A program made the translations under genes and the position numbers. This document shows, piece by piece, positions 22,885-61,867 of a stretch of 64,000 nt of DNA (within the stretch, counting starts at the first letter, position 1; each line of letters starts with the position of its first letter). The stretch lies in contig VFIW01000105.1 of the NCBI GenBank assembly GCA_006386115.1, positions 124,001 to 188,000 of the forward strand. Reading direction: 5' to 3'. Source of the stretch: Globisporangium splendens (taxonomy: Eukaryota > Oomycota > Peronosporomycetes > Pythiales > Pythiaceae). Below the pieces are notes generated by a model, which saw nothing but the letters and a program-made list of their open reading frames with translations, did no database searches and was not told the DNA's origin.

Positions 22885-23089
22885 CTTTTATAAATGGTTG
22901 GCTTACCACCAACCATTTATATATACAGTTCCAATAAAGATACTTTTTCTTGATATCTGATGACAGCAACAACAATGGCTACATCCAGTAGGTACGACAA
23001 GAAATGGATGAGGTCATAAGTCAATCATTAAATGCGGCTAATAAATAAGTTGTGGTTTCCGTTTTTTTTTCCTCGATGTAGGGTCGTAC

Positions 23090-24736
23090 TTAGAGCCGAA
23101 GCACCAGCGACGGCGACAACGACGGTCTGCGATCGACATTCATTACACCATGGGGACTGCTGATGGGCGGCAGTACTGGTGCGTGCGTCTCATTCTCTCT
23201 CTGGTGCATGGACAGCGGTGGCCGCAAGAGCGGATCTGACAGGCTCAAGTGACTTTCAAGAGGAGCCGATGGCTCGAGGCTTCTGGGGCTGGCGCGTCCA
23301 TAGAATCCCGAGATGCCGTGATGGCCATTCTGCTGGTGCGAAGCAGGAGACAGAAGCGCTCGCGGCGGTGGCGACGACACTGTCTCCTCCACTGCATAGT
23401 GATCACGTTGTCGCGGCTGAAGCTGAAGTTGCGGTGGCGGGGGTCCAAAGTGACAGAGCGAGTCGATTCGCGGCAGCGGCCAGTCGCAGATCAAATGGCG
23501 GATCGAATGCTCCACGCGTGACTGGAATCGCCGGATGAGCGACCGCGAGAGAGCAGTCGACACCGCTGCCACGTACTTGAGCTTCGAGCGCACGAGCAGG
23601 TCCACGATCTCCTCGTGGCTCATGAGGATGCCCAGATCGGCGCGCGCATGGATCACGCGCACGATGCCGGCTTCGTCCTCGAACGGGATGTAGTTCTCGA
23701 GCGGCAGTGCGGCTTCTTTCTGGCGCGCGCGCTTCTTGATGCGGCGATGCAGCGCTGCAAAGTGCACGCCGTAAGCCTTGGCGGCGTTGCGCAGACTCAT
23801 GCCGTGGATCTCGACGGCGTCCATGGCCTTTTCCCACGTCTCTGCTGAGACCACGTTGCTCTGGCGGGAGTTGTGCTTGCCATTGCCTGTGGTGCCGTCA
23901 ATGTCGTCATTCATGATCGAGTCGCGGGTGTTCTCGCTCTCGCTTTCGGACGTGCTGTCGTGCACCATCTGGCTGTCGTCGTCATCGTTGCCATAGTAAA
24001 CTCCTCCGTTGCTATTGCAGTGCGAGTGGTTTCTCGGTGCCGCCGCATACCCGCGACTCAATTGCTGTTGTTGCTGTTGCTGTGGAGGCGACAAGGACGC
24101 ATACGTCTGGCCGGGACTGGCAGCCGATAAGCTCTGGCGGCTGTTGGTGATCGAGTGCATTGCATTTGCTGCTACTGGGAGTCTGCTGCTACTGTTGATT
24201 GCGCCATCGCCTCCTTGTTCGGCGGCACTGGACGTGGTGCTCGACTGCAGACTCGAGCCGTTGTCGCCATGTTCCCTAGCATTTGACCCCGCTGCCGCTC
24301 CTGTTGCCACACTAGTGCTAACGGGCTGTACGAAGCCGTGGACGCGCTTCGACGCGGCGATCCAGCGGTTCGGCGGGAAGTCGGAGGGCAGGTCGCGGTG
24401 GCCGCTCTGGCTCGCGATCGTGCGCACCACGCAGCGCACGTCGTCGGACGTGACCTGGTGCTCGTGGAGGAACTGCTCGCGCAGCACGAGCAACGCCTCG
24501 TCCTGTTCGGCCCTCGAGAGCGCAAACTCGTCTGCCACAGAGATGTTGTTGTTGTTGTTGTTGTTGCTGCTGCTGCTGGCGGTGGCGCCCAAGTGCCGGC
24601 CGCGCACGCGGCGATGCAGCGACATGTGGTGCACGCCGTAGAGCTGCGCGGCGCGGCGCAGACTCATCTTCTGCACGCTCACGGCGTGGATCGCCTGCGC
24701 CCACACCTTCTCACTCACGGCGCTGGCACGCGGCAT
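23090..24736 (-). CDS. Psq-type double helix-turn-helix protein (left copy)
   Basis: 548 residues from the ATG at 24736 (MPRASAVSEKVWAQAI). A longer frame reaches an ATG at 25105, but an intron-like acceptor (CCATTTCAG) sits just before the MPRAS start and the extension looks non-coding. Two HTH units are present: KMSLRRAAQLYGVHHMSLHR near residue 25, and GMSLRNAAKAYGVHFAALHR near residue 315. Each matches the pipsqueak/CENP-B-like pattern of fungal and oomycete DNA-binding proteins. Between them are Asn, Gln and Ser tracts and an acidic stretch. A helical region (YIPFEDEAGIVRVIHARADL) and a Pro-rich tail with PPISSPHG follow the second HTH. A DNA-binding regulator or a domesticated transposase-type protein is likely; no catalytic domain is seen. 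The duplicate at 34527 differs by a few residues. Confidence 0.85.
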   Translation of the reverse strand: MPRASAVSEKVWAQAIHAVSVQKMSLRRAAQLYGVHHMSLHRRVRGRHLGATASSSSNNNNNNNISVADEFALSRAEQDEALLVLREQFLHEHQVTSDDVRCVVRTIASQSGHRDLPSDFPPNRWIAASKRVHGFVQPVSTSVATGAAAGSNAREHGDNGSSLQSSTTSSAAEQGGDGAINSSSRLPVAANAMHSITNSRQSLSAASPGQTYASLSPPQQQQQQQLSRGYAAAPRNHSHCNSNGGVYYGNDDDDSQMVHDSTSESESENTRDSIMNDDIDGTTGNGKHNSRQSNVVSAETWEKAMDAVEIHGMSLRNAAKAYGVHFAALHRRIKKRARQKEAALPLENYIPFEDEAGIVRVIHARADLGILMSHEEIVDLLVRSKLKYVAAVSTALSRSLIRRFQSRVEHSIRHLICDWPLPRIDSLCHFGPPPPQLQLQPRQRDHYAVEETVSSPPPRALLSPASHQQNGHHGISGFYGRASPRSLEPSAPLESHLSLSDPLLRPPLSMHQRENETHAPVLPPISSPHGVMNVDRRPSLSPSLVLRL

Positions 24737-25832
24737 TGCTGGACCAGCTGAAATGGGTACAGACGCAGGGTTACGTTGCGACTTGCGCGTTACAAATGGG
24801 GTACGTTTGTTGCTTGTGGGACTTGCTGGTTTGCGGGCGGCAAGTTGAACCAACAAGGAGTCGAGTTGGATTGTGGCTGCCGACGACAACAAAGTCTGCA
24901 GGTGGCAAGAGCACACACAGGAGGAGGAATGACGTGGAGAGCACGCCGACCAAGTGCAACACAAAGAACCGTCGCCACGACGGGTTTGCAGCAGTCGCGC
25001 GCATGCAAAAGTACAGTAGAGAGATACGATTGCAACCCACCGAACGCGACGGAACAGAAAAAGGAACAATAGTGGGGTGACAGCACGGCGGGGCGACATC
25101 TTCACCCGACTCCACTATGCACCTTCTTTGGCAGTCGGACGCCGCTGATTGGCTGATGCGAGGAGTCGGCCCCTCTCGCTCACACGAGCATCGAGTCGGA
25201 CCAGCGCGCCAGTTGATTGGGATGCAGGACATGAAACTTTCCGCTTTTGCTATCTCTGCTGATCGGTTGCTTCCTTATCTGACGACAGCGACTTGAGAGT
25301 TGCGTTTTGGATGCTTGCATGCGATTAAGTAGGACGCTTGATGCACGGGACAAATGATGTCGCTGCTTGCAAATCTTGCTGCACAAGAATGCAAGATTTT
25401 GCTGCCTTCCTCGCGATCACGAGGAGTCAAGGTTGGCAGGGAGTTGCCTCTTGCCTCTCGGTTGTGTTTCAATCTGACACTGTTGCGTGTTTACTAGCAT
25501 TAATTTCCCAAGTGTAACACGCAATGTACAAGACAATACATTTCAATCCATGGAAGCTACATACGCACATCGCATCGGGGTAGGGATGCAAGTCCACGAG
25601 TTACAAAAATCTTTCACAGTCGCGGTTGCTGAGAAGTGTGCTGTACCCTGCAAACGCAAACGAGAGACCCGTCAAAGCTTCGACATTTTGTTCTGCGTGC
25701 CAGTTTGGAACAAGAGCGTGATGCATTTTCCGACAGACCGCCAGCGAGACAGTCTGGAACGAGTCAAGTGAACCGACCGCACTGTCGAACGGCCCCTCCC
25801 AGCACAACGGACTGTACCAGTCGGTCTTTCCA
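24737..25832. other. Upstream region of left HTH gene
   Basis: About 1.1 kb inside the left arm. It holds the probable 5' UTR and its intron, a small perfect hairpin at 25372-25398 (AATCTTGC/GCAAGATT) and another palindrome around CCTCGCGATCACGAGG. No further gene is supported. Confidence 0.5.
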
Positions 25833-33429: not shown

Positions 33430-34526
33430 TTGGAAAGACCGACTGGTACAGTCCGTTGTGCTGGGAGGGGCCGTTCGACAGTGCGGTCGGTTCACTTGAC
33501 TCGTTCCAGACTGTCTCGCTGGCGGTCTGTCGGAAAATGCATCACGCTCTTGTTCCAAACTGGCACGCAGAACAAAATGTCGAAGCTTTGACGGGTCTCT
33601 CGTTTGCGTTTGCAGGGTACAGCACACTTCTCAGCAACCGCGACTGTGAAAGATTTTTGTAACTCGTGGACTTGCATCCCTACCCCGATGCGATGTGCGT
33701 ATGTAGCTTCCATGGATTGAAATGTATTGTCTTGTACATTGTGTGTTACACTTGGGAAATTAATGCTAGTAAACACGCAACAGTGTCAGATTGAAACACA
33801 ACCGAGAGGCAAGAGGCAACTCCCTGCCAACCTTGACTCCTCGTGATCGCGAGGAAGGCAGCAAAATCTTGCATTCTTGTGCAGCAAGATTTGCAAGCAG
33901 CGACATCATTTGTCCCGTGCATCAAGCGTCCTACTTAATCGCATGCAAGCATCCAAAACGCAACTCTCAAGTTGCTGTCGTCAGATAAGGAAGCAACCGA
34001 TCAGCAGAGATAGCAAAAGCGGAAAGTTTCATGTCCTGCATCCCAATCAACTGGCGCGCTGGTCCGACTCGATGCTCGTGTGAGCGAGAGGGGCCGACTC
34101 CTCGCATCAGCCAATCAGCGGCGTCCGACTGCCAAAGAAGGTGCATAGTGGAGTCGGGTGAAGATGTCGCCCCGCCGTGCTGTCACCCCACTATTGTTCC
34201 TTTTTCTGTTCCGTCGCGTTCGGTGGGTTGCAATCGTATCTCTCTACTGTACTTTTGCATGCGCGCGACTGCTGCAAACCCGTCGTGGCGACGGTTCTTT
34301 GTGTTGCACTTGGTCGGCGTGCTCTCCACGTCATTCCTCCTCCTGTGTGTGCTCTTGCCACCTGCAGACTTTGTTGTCGTCGGCAGCCACAATCCAACTC
34401 GACTCCTTGTTGGTTCAACTTGCCGCCCGCAAACCAGCAAGTCCCACAAGCAACAAACGTACCCCATTTGTAACGCGCAAGTCGCAACGTAACCCTGCGT
34501 CTGTACCCATTTCAGCTGGTCCAGCA
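33430..34526. other. Upstream region of right HTH gene
   Basis: About 1.1 kb of the right arm, the mirror of 24737-25832. It holds the probable 5' UTR with an intron acceptor at about 34514 and the mirrored small hairpin. No other gene. Confidence 0.5.
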
Positions 34527-36170
34527 ATGCCGCGTGCCAGCGCCGTGAGTGAGAAGGTGTGGGCGCAGGCGATCCACGCCGTGAGCGTGCAGAAGATGAG
34601 TCTGCGCCGCGCCGCGCAGCTCTACGGCGTGCACCACATGTCGCTGCATCGCCGCGTGCGCGGCCGGCACTTGGGCGCCACCGCCAGCAGCAGCAGCAAC
34701 AACAACAACAACAACATCTCTGTGGCAGACGAGTTTGCGCTCTCGAGGGCCGAACAGGATGAGGCGTTGCTCGTGCTGCACGAGCAGTTCCTCCACGAGC
34801 ACCAGGTCACGTCCGACGACGTGCGCTGCGTGGTGCGCACGATCGCGAGCCAGAGCGGCCACCGCGACCTGCCCTCCGACTTCCCGCCGAACCGCTGGAT
34901 CGCCGCGTCGAAGCGCGTCCACGGCTTCGTACAGCCCGTTAGCACTAGTGTGGCAACAGGAGCGGCAGCGGGGTCAAATGCTAGGGAACATGGCGACAAC
35001 GGCTCGAGTCTGCAGTCGAGCACCACGTCCAGTACCGCCGAACAAGGAGGCGATGGCGCAATCAACAGTAGCAGCAGACTCCCAGTAGCAGCAAATGCAA
35101 TGCACTCGATCACCAACAGCCGCCAGAGCTTATCGGCTGCCAGTCCCGGCCAGACGTATGCGTCCTTGTCGCCTCCACAGCAACAGCAACAACAGCAATT
35201 GAGTCGCGGGTATGCGGCGGCACCGAGAAACCACTCGCACTGCAATAGCAACGGAGGAGTTTACTATGGCAACGATGACGACGACAGCCAGATGGTGCAC
35301 GACAGCACGTCCGAAAGCGAGAGCGAGAACACCCGCGACTCGATCATGAATGACGACATTGACGACACCACAGGCAATGGCAAGCGCAACTCCCGCCAGA
35401 GCAACGTGGTCTCAGCAGAGACGTGGGAAAAGGCCATGGACGCCGTCGAGATCCACGGCATGAGTCTGCGCAACGCCGCCAAGGCTTACGGCGTGCACTT
35501 TGCAGCGCTGCATCGCCGCATCAAGAAGCGCGCGCGCCAGAAAGAAGCCGCACTGCCGCTCGAGAACTACATCCCGTTCGAGGACGAAGCCGGCATCGTG
35601 CGCGTGATCCATGCGCGCGCCGATCTGGGCATCCTCATGAGCCACGAGGAGATCGTGGACCTGCTCGTGCGCTCGAAGCTCAAGTACGTGGCAGCGGTGT
35701 CGACTGCTCTCTCGCGGTCGCTCATCCGGCGATTCCAGTCACGCGTGGAGCATTCGATCCGCCATTTGATCTGCGACTGGCCGCTGCCGCGAATCGACTC
35801 GCTCTGTCACTTTGGACCCCCGCCACCGCAACTTCAGCTTCAGCCGCGACAACGTGATCACTATGCAGTGGAGGAGACAGTGTCGTCGCCACCGCCGCGA
35901 GCGCTTCTGTCTCCTGCTTCGCACCAGCAGAATGGCCATCACGGCATCTCGGGATTCTATGGACGCGCCAGCCCCAGAAGCCTCGAGCCATCGGCTCCTC
36001 TTGAAAGTCGCTTGAGCCTGTCAGATCCGCTCTTGCGGCCACCGCTGTCCATGCACCAGAGAGAGAATGAGACGCACACACCAGTACTGCCGCCCATCAG
36101 CAGTCCCCATGGTGTAATGAATGTCGATCGCAGACCGTCGTTGTCGCCGTCGCTGGTGCTTCGGCTCTAA
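34527..36170 (+). CDS. Psq-type double helix-turn-helix protein (right copy)
   Basis: 547 residues from ATG 34527. It has the same domain order as the left copy: HTH near residue 25, Asn/Ser/Gln tracts, acidic stretch, second HTH, helical block and Pro-rich tail. Compared with the left copy it has one Asn fewer in the Asn run. It also has REQF>HEQF, SSAAEQ>SSTAEQ, DIDGTT>DIDDTT, GKHNSR>GKRNSR, ESHLS>ESRLS and ETHAP>ETHTP. No lesion breaks either copy, so both may be expressed. The two genes point away from each other's downstream sides, with their 5' ends facing the copine spacer. Confidence 0.85.
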   Translation: MPRASAVSEKVWAQAIHAVSVQKMSLRRAAQLYGVHHMSLHRRVRGRHLGATASSSSNNNNNNISVADEFALSRAEQDEALLVLHEQFLHEHQVTSDDVRCVVRTIASQSGHRDLPSDFPPNRWIAASKRVHGFVQPVSTSVATGAAAGSNAREHGDNGSSLQSSTTSSTAEQGGDGAINSSSRLPVAANAMHSITNSRQSLSAASPGQTYASLSPPQQQQQQQLSRGYAAAPRNHSHCNSNGGVYYGNDDDDSQMVHDSTSESESENTRDSIMNDDIDDTTGNGKRNSRQSNVVSAETWEKAMDAVEIHGMSLRNAAKAYGVHFAALHRRIKKRARQKEAALPLENYIPFEDEAGIVRVIHARADLGILMSHEEIVDLLVRSKLKYVAAVSTALSRSLIRRFQSRVEHSIRHLICDWPLPRIDSLCHFGPPPPQLQLQPRQRDHYAVEETVSSPPPRALLSPASHQQNGHHGISGFYGRASPRSLEPSAPLESRLSLSDPLLRPPLSMHQRENETHTPVLPPISSPHGVMNVDRRPSLSPSLVLRL

Positions 36171-36275
36171 GTACGACCCTACATCGAGGAAAAAAAAACG
36201 GAAACCACAACTTATTTATTAGCCGCATTTAATGATTGACTTATGACCTCACCTCATCCATTTAGCAGTTGGCGT

Positions 36276-54940: not shown

Positions 54941-57900
54941 CTACAGCGCGGATTGCACTAGATCACTTCTAACTGCTAAATAATCTTTGACCAGGATGGC
55001 ATGTTCTCTTGGTCCTATGTGAGGCTGCCTTGTGTTGTCCAATGACCTTGGGTCTTCCGAACTTCGCATAAGCCAATGCATGACGTCGTTGTCAAGATCC
55101 TGGGTGAGATTGTTGAAAGCAGCTCTTTGAGTTGGGAAGTGAACCTGCGTTGAGGTTCTGGTGTCCATGGCTAGGTTGGCGGCTGAGTCCGCCATCTTGT
55201 TGAAGGCACGGTAGTGATGGTACCATCCTCGGATGCCGATGCAATCCGCGAGTCGTCGACTTGTCTGGTATAAACGTGCCAATCGGTGCTGTCGAGGGGA
55301 CCGATGCATTCGCTGTTGGGAGATAATGAGTGCACTGTCTCCAATCACGTACAACGGTTCGAAGTGACTGCGTTGGGCTTCTCGGAGTCCATGTATGAGA
55401 CCCCAGTACTCGGCAAAGTTGTTGGTCGTGTCCTTCCTGCTATAGCCATGCTGGCGGCCCAAATTAAACTGGCTGTGTGCGAGTCCTTATGGACACGCAC
55501 GATAATGGATCCAGTCCCTCCTGGTCCTGGATTGCCGCGTGATCCACCATCGAAAAACAACAGGTAAACGCCGCGAGTATCATTTGGAGTCAAGGGGATG
55601 GCGTCGGTTTGGCTGAGAAAGCAGTCGACATATGCCTTGAGAACTGCTGCAACCGTGTGACCGTCCGAGTCTCCAGCTTGCGCTTCAGCGAGTCGTGTGA
55701 GGTTTCACATTCCTGCCTCTAATCTGGTCATCATGATCGCCATCTCAGCGGTCGATTCGATTGGATCCGAATCCATGCGTCGCAGATGCGCACACCAAAT
55801 GGTCTGTATGAGCGACGCGCTCCTATATCGCCACAGCATGTGTGCGACGGGATAGAGATGATCTTGGAGATGTTCATTGGAGCACTTGTGTCCGATAATG
55901 TGTCTCTTGATCGTGGTCCATGCATGCCTTGGAGTATCTGGTAGATCCAGACTGAAGATCCAGATTGCGGGGTCGTGACCAGGAGTGATTCCGATCTTCG
56001 CCCATAGCGCATAAAAGTAGTTCCACACCAGTTTGGCTTTCGGACACTCCCAGAATAGATGTTGAACAGAAGATTGGACAACTTGGGAGCATTCGGGATT
56101 CGAGCAGGACAGATCAGCTTTCTCATAGTTCCACATGGAGAGTCGGTTGGCTTTCAGCCGGAGAAGAGTCTGAGCCGTATAAACCGTAATCCCTGGGATG
56201 TTGTGTAATTCGCTCCACTGGATTAATTGCAGTCCTGGCCACAGAGATCCTGCTGTTTGGACAACTTTGTTGACTGCTGCATCTCGAGTATCTTTGCCAA
56301 TTTGTGTCCTCGTTGCTGCAACTTGTTGCCGATAGAAAGATCTGGTCGTATTGTATCGTCCGTTGCCACCCCATAGTTGCACGATTCTTGTGAAGCGTGG
56401 ATGTGCATGGAACGACACCTTCTGCCCGTTCAAGTCTCTTGTTGCCATGATGTCACAGTCCATTGCGGAGTGAACTGTATGCGTAGCTTTGACTAGGGTC
56501 GTGTCGACGTGGGTCAGAGTTGCTTCGCTGGTGTGCAGATGCCATTCGTGGTTGTAATGACGTTGCCCGTTGTACAGCCAAAGCACATTTGTTTGCTGTG
56601 GTCGATACAGAAGCTGTGGGAAGTTGGATACCAACGTAGCACATAACCGCTCGAGCGCTCGAATAGACGGCCGGGAGAATCCGGAGATTCCACATGTTGG
56701 GATGAAGTTAAGCACTCCTGGTCTTATCCACTCCCATCGAAGTATGTCACCCAGTTGTGCTGTTCCAACTGATAATGATGAGTGAGCAAGCTTGTAAGGG
56801 GAGCCGTTGGAATCAAGAAGCCACCCATCTGCAGTCGAGGTCATGTATGGCAGCCATTCTGCACAGAATGTCCCACGTAGCTTCCGTCCTTCAGCGATGA
56901 TACCTGGAAGCCTGTCAGACATTTTAGAGCTGAGGTCGATCTGGAACACCTCGCCGTCCCATTGAGTCTGCACAATTGTCGACTTGAAGTGCTCGTAACA
57001 CCAACGTACATTATCACGTTCTCTGGGTTCATAGGGTCGAGAATGGAGCGACGCACATAATGCTGCGCCAGTTGTCCACATGTTATCACGAAGCTGGGTG
57101 GCCGCCTTGGAATTGCATCGAGCGGCGTGATGTACGTCGAAGAAGCCCTTGTGTTGTGCAGCAAGATTTCCCCGATGACCTGATCGATGTGAGAGGTTGT
57201 GAGTGACCATTTGGAGACTGCTGTGGCACTCATCGTCATCAGCTCAGTTCTGATGTTGGGTACTGACAAGCCTCCATTCATTTTTTTGAGCTCAGCTTGT
57301 TCTTCCTTCATCCACGGTTTCGCAGGCTTACCATTCCTTGAGCCCCAGACAAATTGTTTCACTAGGTCGTGTAGCTGATTGACAATAGCCGTAGAGGGCC
57401 AGGAGTGCTGGCCACATAAAGCACTTTGGGTATGATGACGGCACTGGCAATTGCTGCGCGTTGGGCGACAGAGTGAGTTTTGAGACGCACAAGTCGAAGT
57501 CTGACACGTAAGGCTTGGATGCACTTGGACCAGTTAATTGCATTCGAAGGCGTTTGTCCGACTTGGATACCGAGGTAGCGGCAATGTTCCTCACGTTGTA
57601 GCACATGAATGTCACTGACTGACTCTTCGGTGGGGCTATATTCCTTGTTCAGCGGTAATACTGCAGATTTGTGCCGATTGACTCGAAGCCCAGAAGCTGC
57701 TCCATATTTGTCCAGGATTGCAAACACGGCGTTAATATCCTTGGGATCGCTAAGATAAATGGTCGTGTCGTCTGCGTATCCTCCAATTCTGACTTCAGTT
57801 GCGCATCCTGCTGCCTGGAGTTCAACGCCGTGTATTTCGTCACTCGCTTCGATTTTCCGATAAAGAACCTCTAACGCCAAGATGAAGAGAAGAGGGGGCA

Positions 57901-58735
57901 GCGGACATCCTTGACGAATTCCGGATGTTACGTTGTACTTTCTCGACAGGAAGCCGTTGGCAATGAACTTGTACGTGGTTTGAGAGTGTGACACCTTCAC
58001 TAAGCGTACAAACTTCAATGGGAATCCAAGATGCTGGAGCGCTTGTGCCAGAAAGCTGCGATCGAGTGAATCATACGCTTTAGCAAAATCAAGGAACAAC
58101 GCGATCGCTCTGGACATGGCGGGGTCGCTCGTGGCCCGCTGTTGCGCAGCCAATAACACATCGATCGTCGTCGGGATTGCTCGCCCTGGAACGAAACCAG
58201 CTTGCATGTGGTGGATAAGCCAAGGGAGCACAGCTCGTAATCTGGTTGCAGATATCCGTGTGAATATTTTGTAATCCGAGTTGAGGAGTGCGATTGGCCT
58301 GTAGTCCAGCGGCGATGCAGCAGAGACGGACTTTTTTATGCAGTGAATATGTGCTTCACTGAACGAACTTGGTAGAACGCATTCGGGTATCCACAAGTTG
58401 AAAAGTCGCTCGAATAGACCGGTAATCTCGTCACAGTGGTCTCTGTACCAGTCGTTGCCGAGTTCGTCAGGACCGTGAGCTTTGCCTCTCTTGCATTTCT
58501 TCACAGCCTGTTTAATTTCACTCGAATTGATCGGTTTGAGCAGGAAGCCTAATCTGTCCGACGGAGGAATAGCTGTTCCTGGATCAAGGATTTGATCGAT
58601 GTCAGTTTGCAGAGTGGGCGCCTGTTGCATGATTGATTTCCATCCTTCTCCCATGTCGTCAGCAAGTTCTCGTGAACGCATGGGTCCGCAAGTAGCTGTG
58701 CCACCGAGCGTGAAGATAGTGTTGTCAAGGAACTT
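54941..58735 (-). mobile_element. Non-LTR retrotransposon (LINE), 5'-truncated and frameshifted
   Basis: Minus-strand order is reverse transcriptase, zinc-knuckle region, RNase H. The RT frame (58834-57362) has KKCKRGKAHGPDELGNDWY, YRPIALLNSDYKIFTRI, QAGFVPGRAI, ALFLDFAKAYDSLDRSFL, TSGIRQGCPLPPLLFILALE and the catalytic GYADDTTIYL. Frame breaks near 57410 and 57150 lead into a region with the CSNPECSQVV..HLFWECPKAKLVW knuckle (to 55705). RNase H begins LLFFDGGSRGNPGPGGTGS (frame 55593) and continues after another break as NNFAEYWGLIHGL, YVIGDSALIISQQ and KMADSAANLAMD, keeping all four acidic residues. No AP endonuclease precedes the RT, so the copy is 5' truncated. It is dead but still clearly readable. 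Confidence 0.9.
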
Positions 58736-59349
58736 GGTCGAAGGCGCGAACTCACCACCCAGACCCAACACCAACCAACCCTGACGACGTGTACAAACCC
58801 TAAGAACCCATCTACCTCCTCCAAGGCGGAGCACCTCACTACGCTTGGGAGGAGATGCTCTGCAAGCAGCGTATTTTGGCAGTCTGCAGCAGTGACCTCC
58901 TACACCCTGACCTTAAAAGCTAGGTTTTGCTTTTTGTCGCATCTTTCAGGGTTTTATTTTGCACTTTTCAGTTTGTGTCAAAGTGCACATTCGCCGTCCG
59001 TGTCAGTTGACAGAGCAGAGATGTGTCAGCGAGCACTCACAACACAGTCTATCCGCCATTTAGAGTCACAATAGTACCGATCAGAGACGACGGGGTATTG
59101 TATCTCGCTCATACTCCCATCACCCTTGATTACTGATTTAAGCTAGCACAGCAACCTCATCATCTCACTTCACTGATTTACACAGACGACTGCATTTTCC
59201 TCATGACCATCATAATCACCAAGTTCAGAAGTCCCACTTTCGTCACTATCGACCTACTTGTGTCTGATTCAATCGTATTGAACAGGGTACAAAGACACAG
59301 TGTTGGTTTTAAATGGAGGATGGACTGAACGCAGTTTGGTTTTCTCTTT
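58736..59349. other. Intergenic between two transposon fossils
   Basis: About 600 bp with no convincing gene. The lost N-terminal part of the Fanzor element would be expected here, but I cannot find a RuvC-I motif. Confidence 0.5.
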
Positions 59350-60097
59350 GAGCTCACGCATCGCTGCTCCTGCGCTCTCCGTTTAGCATCTAGGCATCCA
59401 TCTCATCGTCATCTTGCTGGAGTGAAGAAGGCAGCACACTGGCATGAGAATTTGAAACAGAGAGAGCCGACTTACTCGACTTTCTTGGAGGAACTGCCGA
59501 CCTTCAAGGTCAGCTCTTTCAACGAGTGCATCGAGCAGCTCGAGGTGTTGTGGAAACATTTGGATTTTTAGTTGAATTTTCGACAAACTATCCTTTTCGA
59601 AAGTGGCGTTTTTCCTTTTTTCCTAAAACGATTCGACCAAAAGGCTCGACGCAAACATCAAACATCGCAGCGCAATTGACCCCGACGCCGAACCCGCAGA
59701 TCTGCGTCGCTTTGGGAGACTGGAGCGACCCAAAACGCACTCGGGGAATGCGCATGGTCCAGTGAAGGGTGTATCTAAGGAGCTGGCTAAGCGGGCGACA
59801 GTCGTGCTCGCCGACGAGTACTGTACAAGTCAGCGATGTTCGAGTTGCTTGCAGATTCTCTCGAGCAGAAGATTTCTGACGACGAAAGAAGACGGCGCCG
59901 TGGCATACAATCCGTCGTACACTGTCCTTCGCAGCCCCAATCTGCAGTGCAGAACGACTTGGGATCGAGACGTCAATGCTGGAATCAACATCTATCAGCT
60001 TTGTAGGCACATGACATTCGGGTTGCCTTGGCCAGCAGAATTGAGCTGGAAGACAGTCCGCAAACACTCACTACAACGTACTGTGTGCATCCTATAA
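59350..60097 (+). pseudogene. Fanzor (eukaryotic TnpB-like RNA-guided nuclease) remnant
   Basis: Three plus-strand frames in succession cover the C-terminal half of a Fanzor/OrfB protein. Frame 1 (to TAG 59569-59571) has VKKAAHWHENLKQREPTYST, LEELPTFKVSS and LEVLWKHLDF. After an indel in a T-run, frame 2 continues FSTNYPFRKWRF and PQICVALGDWSDPKR. After another break near 59735-59760, frame 3 reads VKGVSKELAKRATVVLADEY, then the zinc-ribbon half-site TSQRCSSC. It ends with the RuvC-III motif DRDVNAGINIY. The second Cys pair is incomplete: LRSPNLQC has Ser where the family has Cys. RuvC-I is not found. Known role of intact members: transposon-encoded RNA-guided DNA endonucleases related to TnpB and Cas12. 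This copy cannot be active as read. Confidence 0.78.
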
Positions 60098-60220
60098 AGT
60101 GCGATTCCAAACACACATCAAAGAGCAACGAATCTGCTTTCTGCAACAGAAGAACAAAGTGGCTCCCATTCTTCAATCCGCACGCTCGACCACACATCAA
60201 GAGGGAAAGAGGGAAGAAGC

Positions 60221-61867
60221 ATGGCTGCGGGAGATCGCACGTCCACGCTGCCGCTGCTCGGCGCCGTCAAGTCAAGCGCCCACGCGCCGTCGAAGCGCAT
60301 CAAGCAACTGCCGATGCTGTTTGCGCTGGTGGGTGTGATCGTCGCGCCAATTTTGCTCTTTGTCGACATCCAAAGTGTCCGTTTGTCTCCTCAAGCGGCT
60401 CCGATTGAACAGGCAGCGCTTACGGAGTTGACGACGTCATCGTACGCTACGAACGCTGATGGCACGCGCGATTTGCTCAAGGAGTGTGAGGAAAAGTATT
60501 TCACCCAGACACTCGACCACTTTGGTACCGGCGCGCCAACGTACGAGCAGCGCTACTTTGTCTGCAACAAGCACGGCCGCAAGGACGGCGTGATCTTCTT
60601 CTACGTCGGCAACGAAGCTGATGTGGAGCTGTACCTGAACAACACGGGATTGATGTGGGAAAACGCCGAAGAATTTGGCGCGACGCTCGTGTTCGCAGAG
60701 CACCGCTACTTTGGCAAGTCGGTGCCATTTGGCAAGAAAGTGACCAAGCACATGCAGTACCTGTCGACCGAGCAAGCGCTCGCAGACTACGCGGTGCTCA
60801 TCACGCACATCAAGAACACGTATGAGTTGGATGTGCCAGTTGTCGGCTTTGGTGGTTCGTACGGCGGCATGCTCGGCTCGTGGTTCCGCATGAAGTACCC
60901 GCACATCATCGACGGCGTCATCGCCGGCTCGGCGCCGATCCTTGCGTTCTTGGGAGATGAAGAGCCTGTGGACATGGAGTCGTTTGCGCGCGTGACCACT
61001 TTCGACGCGTCTCCAGAAGCAGGCTCCGCTGCAAACTGCATCCCAAACATTCGCCGCGTCTGGAGCGCGATGACGAAGCTCGGCAAGACCAAGGAAGGCC
61101 GAAAAGACCTCTTCAACGCGTTCTCGCTGTGTGAAAGCGAAAAGCTGGAGAAGGAGAAGGACGTCGCGGCGCTGATCGACTGGGCCAAGTCAGCCATTGA
61201 CTACATGGCCATGGGCAACTACCCGTACCCGTCGCCGTACATCATGAACGGCCAGAGCGTACTGCCTGCGTACCCGGTCCGCGTCGCATGCGAGCACATG
61301 AAGGACGAGTACGCACCTGAAGACGACTTGGGTTTGCTGCGCGCGTTCCGCGACGGCATCGGCGTGTACTACAACAGCACGCTTGACCAGGAGTGCTTCA
61401 AGACGAGCGCGCCGTCCGAGGAATCAGCGAACGACGACAACTTCTGGCAGTACCTCTTCTGCTCAGAGCTGTACATGCCCGTGAGCATCGATGGCGTGGA
61501 CGATATGTTCTGGTCCGTGCCGTGGAACCAGACGGCGGACAACGAGAGCTGCATCGAGCAGTGGGGCGTGTCATTGCGTCCGACGTGGGCCATGACCCAG
61601 TACGGCGGCCGCAAGGCGCTGTACGCGGCCAGCAACATCGTGCTGAGCAACGGCAACTACGACCCGTGGTCCGGCACAGGCGTGCTCGAGAACATCTCGG
61701 ACTCGGTCGTGGCCGTGTCCATCGAGGGCGGTGCGCACCACTTGGACCTGTTCTTCAAGAACGAGCTCGACCCGCCGTCCGTGGTGGCTGCGCGCGAAAT
61801 CGAATTGGCGCACGCGCGCAAGTGGATCCGCCAATTCTATGAGCACCGCGCAAGCGTCGCGGCGTAG
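60221..61867 (+). CDS. S28-family serine peptidase (Pro-X carboxypeptidase/DPP-like)
   Basis: Single exon, 548 residues. A hydrophobic segment at about residues 28-49 (LPMLFALVGVIVAPILLF) is a signal anchor. The mature part starts YFTQTLDHFGTGAPTYEQRY, the S28 opening, followed by GVIFFYVGNEADVELY and VFAEHRYFGKSVPF. Nucleophile Ser is in GFGGSYGGMLG at about residue 213, Asp in SNGNYDPWSG at about 481 and His in GGAHHLDL at about 506. Several NxT/NxS sites suit secretion. Known role of the family: removal of residues next to proline, in lysosomes or secreted. Oomycetes keep several such genes. Lies 120 bp after the Fanzor remnant. Intact. Confidence 0.95.
   Translation: MAAGDRTSTLPLLGAVKSSAHAPSKRIKQLPMLFALVGVIVAPILLFVDIQSVRLSPQAAPIEQAALTELTTSSYATNADGTRDLLKECEEKYFTQTLDHFGTGAPTYEQRYFVCNKHGRKDGVIFFYVGNEADVELYLNNTGLMWENAEEFGATLVFAEHRYFGKSVPFGKKVTKHMQYLSTEQALADYAVLITHIKNTYELDVPVVGFGGSYGGMLGSWFRMKYPHIIDGVIAGSAPILAFLGDEEPVDMESFARVTTFDASPEAGSAANCIPNIRRVWSAMTKLGKTKEGRKDLFNAFSLCESEKLEKEKDVAALIDWAKSAIDYMAMGNYPYPSPYIMNGQSVLPAYPVRVACEHMKDEYAPEDDLGLLRAFRDGIGVYYNSTLDQECFKTSAPSEESANDDNFWQYLFCSELYMPVSIDGVDDMFWSVPWNQTADNESCIEQWGVSLRPTWAMTQYGGRKALYAASNIVLSNGNYDPWSGTGVLENISDSVVAVSIEGGAHHLDLFFKNELDPPSVVAAREIELAHARKWIRQFYEHRASVAA

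Follow-up and report, generated by a model that had tools for sequence, protein, structure and literature searches.

Fanzor1 proteins are eukaryotic relatives of the bacterial RNA-guided nuclease TnpB. According to Yoon et al. (2023, PMC10711439), the Fanzor fingerprint combines a DPG motif at RuvC-I with a glutamate located six residues before the first CxxC, and a three-stem fold is predicted for the guide RNAs of Fanzor1s. In SpuFz1, a 75-nt scaffold lies between the stop codon and the 3' repeat and a guide of 14–15 nt is taken from the flanking DNA, and "ghost" elements retain their ends without a gene (Saito et al. 2023, PMC10432273). Within the oomycetes, Bao and Jurka (2013, PMC3627910) described six Fanzor1 families in Pythium ultimum, four in Phytophthora sojae, two in P. 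capsici, one in P. ramorum and two in Albugo laibachii, some of whose coding sequences were drawn as degenerate, with undetermined ends. No description of a guide RNA of an oomycete Fanzor was found in the literature searched.

The window, a 64,000-nt stretch of the Globisporangium splendens assembly (contig C10, positions 124001–188000), carries on its forward strand, at 59405–60047, a Fanzor1 coding remnant that comprises the RuvC-II region, the zinc ribbon and RuvC-III, distributed over three frames and lacking RuvC-I. We conclude with high confidence that this stretch is the C-terminal part of an oomycete Fanzor1 gene, in a copy that is dead and has lost its 5' portion; it encodes no working nuclease. 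Its limits are those of the DNA homology to other copies (about 59405–60047, reaching 60052 in one pair) and replace the extent of 59350–60097 given in the initial annotation. Since oomycete Fanzor1s, some of them degenerate, were published in 2013, the remnant represents a further example of a known family. It shares the protein family, the host group and the occurrence of degenerate copies with the elements of Bao and Jurka (2013), and differs from them in its host species, G. splendens, and in being 5'-truncated and frame-broken. The RuvC/zinc-ribbon architecture is also common to SpuFz1 of Spizellomyces punctatus (PDB 8gkh); however, SpuFz1 is intact and tested, whereas all inspected copies of the present subfamily are broken and show no inverted repeats that we could find.

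To identify the remnant, a profile of length 683 was built from 16 database Fanzor1-type proteins (10 of them named as oomycete, the window's own excluded) and searched against the 1350 window ORFs of at least 30 aa in six frames. Three frames over 59401–60040 matched it collinearly and with touching ranges: the first at profile positions 457–512 (E 8.4e-15), the second at 509–563 (E 4.1e-10) and the third at 547–677 (E 8e-24). These were the only ORFs of the 1350 below E 0.1, all lying in the remnant, and the next best reached E 0.12. The third frame also matched Pfam PF07282 (OrfB_Zn_ribbon / Cas12f1-like TNB domain) with an E value of 3.8e-8 and 33.8 bits, above the cut-off of 26.3, and the first and second frames alone matched no Pfam family at E 1. 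When the 16-protein profile was compared with solved structures, three of the four listed matches were Fanzor1s (SpuFz1, GtFz1 and PpFz1, at 1e-30, 1.2e-28 and 2.9e-19), the fourth being a ribosomal protein at E 0.35 that looks like a chance match; a phmmer search of solved structures with the third frame alone returned no Fanzor. Full-length homologues occur among the database proteins of Phytophthora, Nothophytophthora and G. ultimum. The initial annotation had proposed a fossil Fanzor and suggested searches with Fanzor and OrfB_Zn_ribbon profiles as its check; the three collinear matches and PF07282 bear the proposal out, which can be narrowed to Fanzor1, and the outcome set to speak against it, a lack of such matches, did not occur.

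The sequence landmarks named in that annotation were all recovered at their places on the forward strand: HWH (59437–59445, in the frame of 59329–59571), an in-frame TAG (59569–59571), CVALGDWSDP (59703–59732), the zinc-ribbon half-site TSQRCSSC (59825–59848) and the RuvC-III motif DRDVNAGINI (59963–59992), whose RD is kept. Its reading of GDWS as the catalytic RuvC-II position, by contrast, had to be abandoned. GDWS is a strand conserved in many relatives and is distinct from the repositioned glutamate of the published fingerprint, which is present in the window copy as the codon at 59816–59818, six residues before the first CxxC (first Cys at 59837); the GDWS strand presumably marks the place where TnpB keeps its own glutamate. 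The zinc ribbon and RuvC-III (59825–59992), recognised by translation, PF07282 and the other copies, retain three of the four ribbon cysteines, the third being serine in the window and in its closest copy (L010) and cysteine in another copy (L016), so that a complete C4 zinc finger is not present here. The RuvC-I segment with its DPG would lie upstream of the truncation and is absent, and the remnant is therefore described as a fragment of a Fanzor1 and not as a complete one; DPG is kept by two close sisters, L010 and L027, and also by L014, a member of another subfamily. The DPG and the full ribbon are thus two defining features found in sisters and not in the window copy. As for the HTH_OrfB_IS605 domain, the near-full frames of L014 gave no Pfam match, and the window copy retains no N-terminal part. 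The frame breaks, the internal TAG, the lost ribbon cysteine and the missing RuvC-I, taken by the initial annotation as signs of decay, were all confirmed.

The assembly (53.3 Mb in 195 contigs) contains further copies spread over several contigs. A DNA search with 58950–60240 yielded 27 rows, 15 of which fell in the Fanzor part and correspond to the window and 12 other loci (two loci in two rows each); 11 of the remaining rows came from a separate repeat at about 59045–59331, and one was a 35-base match. A PF07282 search of the assembly gave 18 rows, 17 of them above the cut-off and some representing two pieces of one gene, and 40 rows were obtained with a full-length database relative as the query, individual genes again being represented by several pieces. 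The closest copy, L010 (C10:191424–193588), is 9.5 kb away and differs by 5 mismatches and 5 gap columns over 641. It carries the stop, the frame changes and the lost cysteine of the window copy plus one more indel; these shared lesions indicate that the common ancestor of both was already dead before they separated. L010 extends upstream through the DPG segment, forming a broken gene about 2.1 kb long, and L027 likewise continues upstream. The genome search recommended in the initial annotation succeeded in finding related copies, at the 12 other loci, and no intact copy of the window's subfamily emerged among those inspected, none of which is an unbroken full-length gene. A second subfamily is represented by L014, matched by the G. 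splendens database protein FI667_g13414, as one long frame with two stops, and a third type by L040 and L041, with an open C-terminal frame of 395 residues. Several lineages of RNA-guided nuclease genes have thus died and broken up within one oomycete genome.

Some other ORFs were noted in the assembly. A conserved low-complexity ORF without a Pfam match lies beside both second-subfamily Fanzor1 copies (L013:2746–4044 and L014:6368–7306), in differing arrangement. On contig C175 (L018:1–1047) an ORF has a Hom_end-associated Hint domain just above the cut-off and is perhaps intein-like. On C58 (L022) two 532-aa ORFs in opposite orientation flank a broken HTH_OrfB/TNB-type gene, and one of these ORFs has a sub-threshold Bro-N match.

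Two other identities of the remnant were weighed. A fragment of a Fanzor2 or of a bacterial TnpB, acquired by recent transfer or through contamination, could account for the weak matches to NCBIfam TnpB models (E 0.0044 and 0.013), and a Fanzor2-like gene does exist in the genome: L023:3458–4768 and L024:3599–4909 (contigs C63 and C130) hold a 437-aa ORF that combines HTH_OrfB with DPG and a repositioned glutamate. Fanzor2s and IS607 TnpBs have a C4 ribbon too, and Fanzor2s share the repositioned glutamate and DPG as well (Yoon et al. 2023, PMC10711439). By profile and by sequence, however, the remnant is closest to long oomycete Fanzor1-type proteins of 600–800 residues; the solved structures matched by the profile are Fanzor1s, the NCBIfam matches stay far below their cut-offs, and the copies sit on several oomycete contigs, with that of the window adjoining an oomycete S28 gene. 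An N-terminal HTH_OrfB is carried by Fanzor2s and some TnpBs (Bao and Jurka 2013, PMC3627910), a type present here elsewhere in the genome, at L023/L024. We consider a Fanzor2 or TnpB origin very improbable. Scarcely credible, in turn, is the idea that introns or programmed frameshifting connect the frames into a live gene. The residue pattern is indeed well kept in all three frames, but these overlap on the DNA, so that introns cannot fit between them, and the breaks are therefore frameshifts; moreover, the in-frame TAG, the lost ribbon cysteine and the loss of RuvC-I argue against a functional product, and the sister L010 repeats the same lesions with an additional indel. A dead Fanzor1 copy thus remains our reading of the remnant. 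As a separate observation, the Fanzor2-like ORF of L023/L024 adjoins a LINE-type RNase H, and its best solved match is the TnpB-like protein L79.

The left edge of the window copy, at 59404–59408, is common within a few bases to L016 and L026/L032, whose upstream DNA differs. This shared edge raised the idea of a separate mobile unit with a boundary at 59405, which was rejected because the closest relative, L010, is not cut there; for the same reason the truncation is unlikely to go back to a common ancestor. The 60 bases just upstream of 59405 align weakly with coding sequence (3 of 200 shuffles being as good for L027 and 5 of 200 for L010), which is no more than suggestive of homology. Neither inverted repeats nor target-site duplications were found. 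A separate repeat lies directly left of the remnant, at 59045–59331, its 11 further rows being on other contigs at 68–80% identity.

On the 3' side, sister copies share a conserved tail. It starts 0 to about 22 nt beyond the conserved coding end and is about 72 nt long; homology stops after it, continuing only where whole regions have been duplicated. This tail follows ten coding remnants (L011, L012, L015, L016, L020, L021, L025, L026, L029 and L032). A tail search of the genome found 12 loci besides the window, namely these ten and two more, on C111 (L038), where few coding bases are left, and on C67 (L039), with a partial tail and no coding bases. L012 and L020, the two copies with an open C-terminal frame, have their stop codon 14–15 nt before the tail, which is therefore non-coding there. 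None of the 11 loci searched has a terminal inverted repeat that corresponds to the end of the tail, nor was a left element end found. Folding of five single tails predicted three hairpins in four of them and two in L016 (z -0.8 to -2.5), and in the 10 distinct rows of the 12 tails 95.7% of cells pair, against 21–55% in slid versions. None of the 17 pairs changes on both sides, shuffles doing as well, and RNAalifold detected no compensatory changes; without double-sided changes, covariation speaks neither for nor against a tail structure. The identities of coding part and tail core were compared over 36 pairs of nine copies. In all 14 deep-split pairs (L012 or L020 against the rest) coding identity is 70–76% and tail-core identity 87–96%, with nominal p of 0.0014–0.015 for pairs that are not independent; in the other 22 pairs the two identities are similar, except in the six pairs of L016, where that of the tail is lower. 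This pattern fits constraint on the tail while the elements were active and neutral decay afterwards. Rfam yielded no more than two sub-threshold matches, both at one tail locus (L015), and no viral contig contained the exact tail pattern. The tail model found nothing convincing in the 3' regions of L013 and L014 (best E 0.67 and 0.73), which fold in an ordinary manner (z 0.15 and 0.22).

In its place, size and sharp end the sister tail resembles known Fanzor1 scaffolds, and on this analogy we lean slightly towards reading it as an ancestral guide RNA scaffold. The working ancestor would most likely have been a transposon-borne RNA-guided DNA nuclease with a RuvC D-E-D site and a C4 zinc ribbon that presumably cut DNA; its scaffold would have resided in the approximately 72-nt tail directly after the ORF, and its guide would have been read from the DNA beyond the right end of the element. 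A mere transposon end, with hairpins recognised by a transposase or helicase and no guide RNA, is a somewhat less probable yet serious explanation. In its favour, the tail is found where homology ends on the 3' side, it occurs at L038 and L039 with little or nothing of the coding part left, and it shows no covariation; Bao and Jurka (2013, PMC3627910) also report hairpin ends for Helitron2 elements that carry Fanzor1. In known Fanzor1s, however, the DNA of the right end is also that of the scaffold, and both readings can hold. On balance, the tail with its three predicted hairpins may well represent the scaffold of an oomycete Fanzor1 clade, having changed less than the coding part in the living elements; L038 and L039, which lost the ORF, would then be "ghost" guide-RNA loci scattered through the genome. 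The 75-nt scaffold of SpuFz1 and the published "ghost" elements offer parallels to the tail and to L038/L039, respectively (Saito et al. 2023, PMC10432273); in the available text of Bao and Jurka (2013) no mention of such a 3' tail was found. The tail therefore provides a concrete candidate guide RNA for oomycete Fanzor1s, which the full-length relatives in Phytophthora and Nothophytophthora would permit to be tested directly.

Most of this tail is missing from the window copy, which may keep a scrap of it, hairpin 2 and the terminal octamer, at 60048–60072 on the forward strand. The tail RNA model R1, run unfiltered on 231 bases, placed hairpin 2 at 60047–60060 (E 0.027); the terminal octamer comes next, at 60065–60072. 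In a chained-match test framed after the match had been seen, 148 of 20000 random draws equalled the first match, 11 equalled the second, and no draw equalled both (draws falling in 59300–60150 were not scored). Plain local alignment of the scrap was at chance level (59, 59, 67 and 69 of 300 shuffles being as good), and the default search with R1 over 28 sources did not list it. A possible element end lies near 60072. The initial annotation had expected a guide-RNA-like end at 60098–60220; this interval turned out to be the leader of the neighbouring S28 gene and contains nothing tail-like above noise (best E 0.35).

The adjoining S28 peptidase gene, also reported in the initial annotation, is an unrelated host gene with an uninterrupted forward-strand frame at 60221–61867, identified by ORF, Pfam and homology; its first ATG is at 60221, and the encoded protein shares 96% identity with one of G. 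ultimum. The sister remnant L010 is likewise directly upstream of a host gene, encoding an anoctamin (L010:3617–6001, first ATG 3821). To the left of the Fanzor1 remnant, a reverse transcriptase ORF (RVT_1 by Pfam; 57362–58912, minus strand) is another unrelated neighbour and belongs to a LINE-like element at 55705–58912 that also has a weak, sub-threshold zf-RVT match. Farther away, the window contains a 2.8-kb inverted repeat of 99.6% identity (23009–25832 and 33431–36251), whose arms lie about 7.6 kb apart and carry ORFs of 671 and 670 aa.
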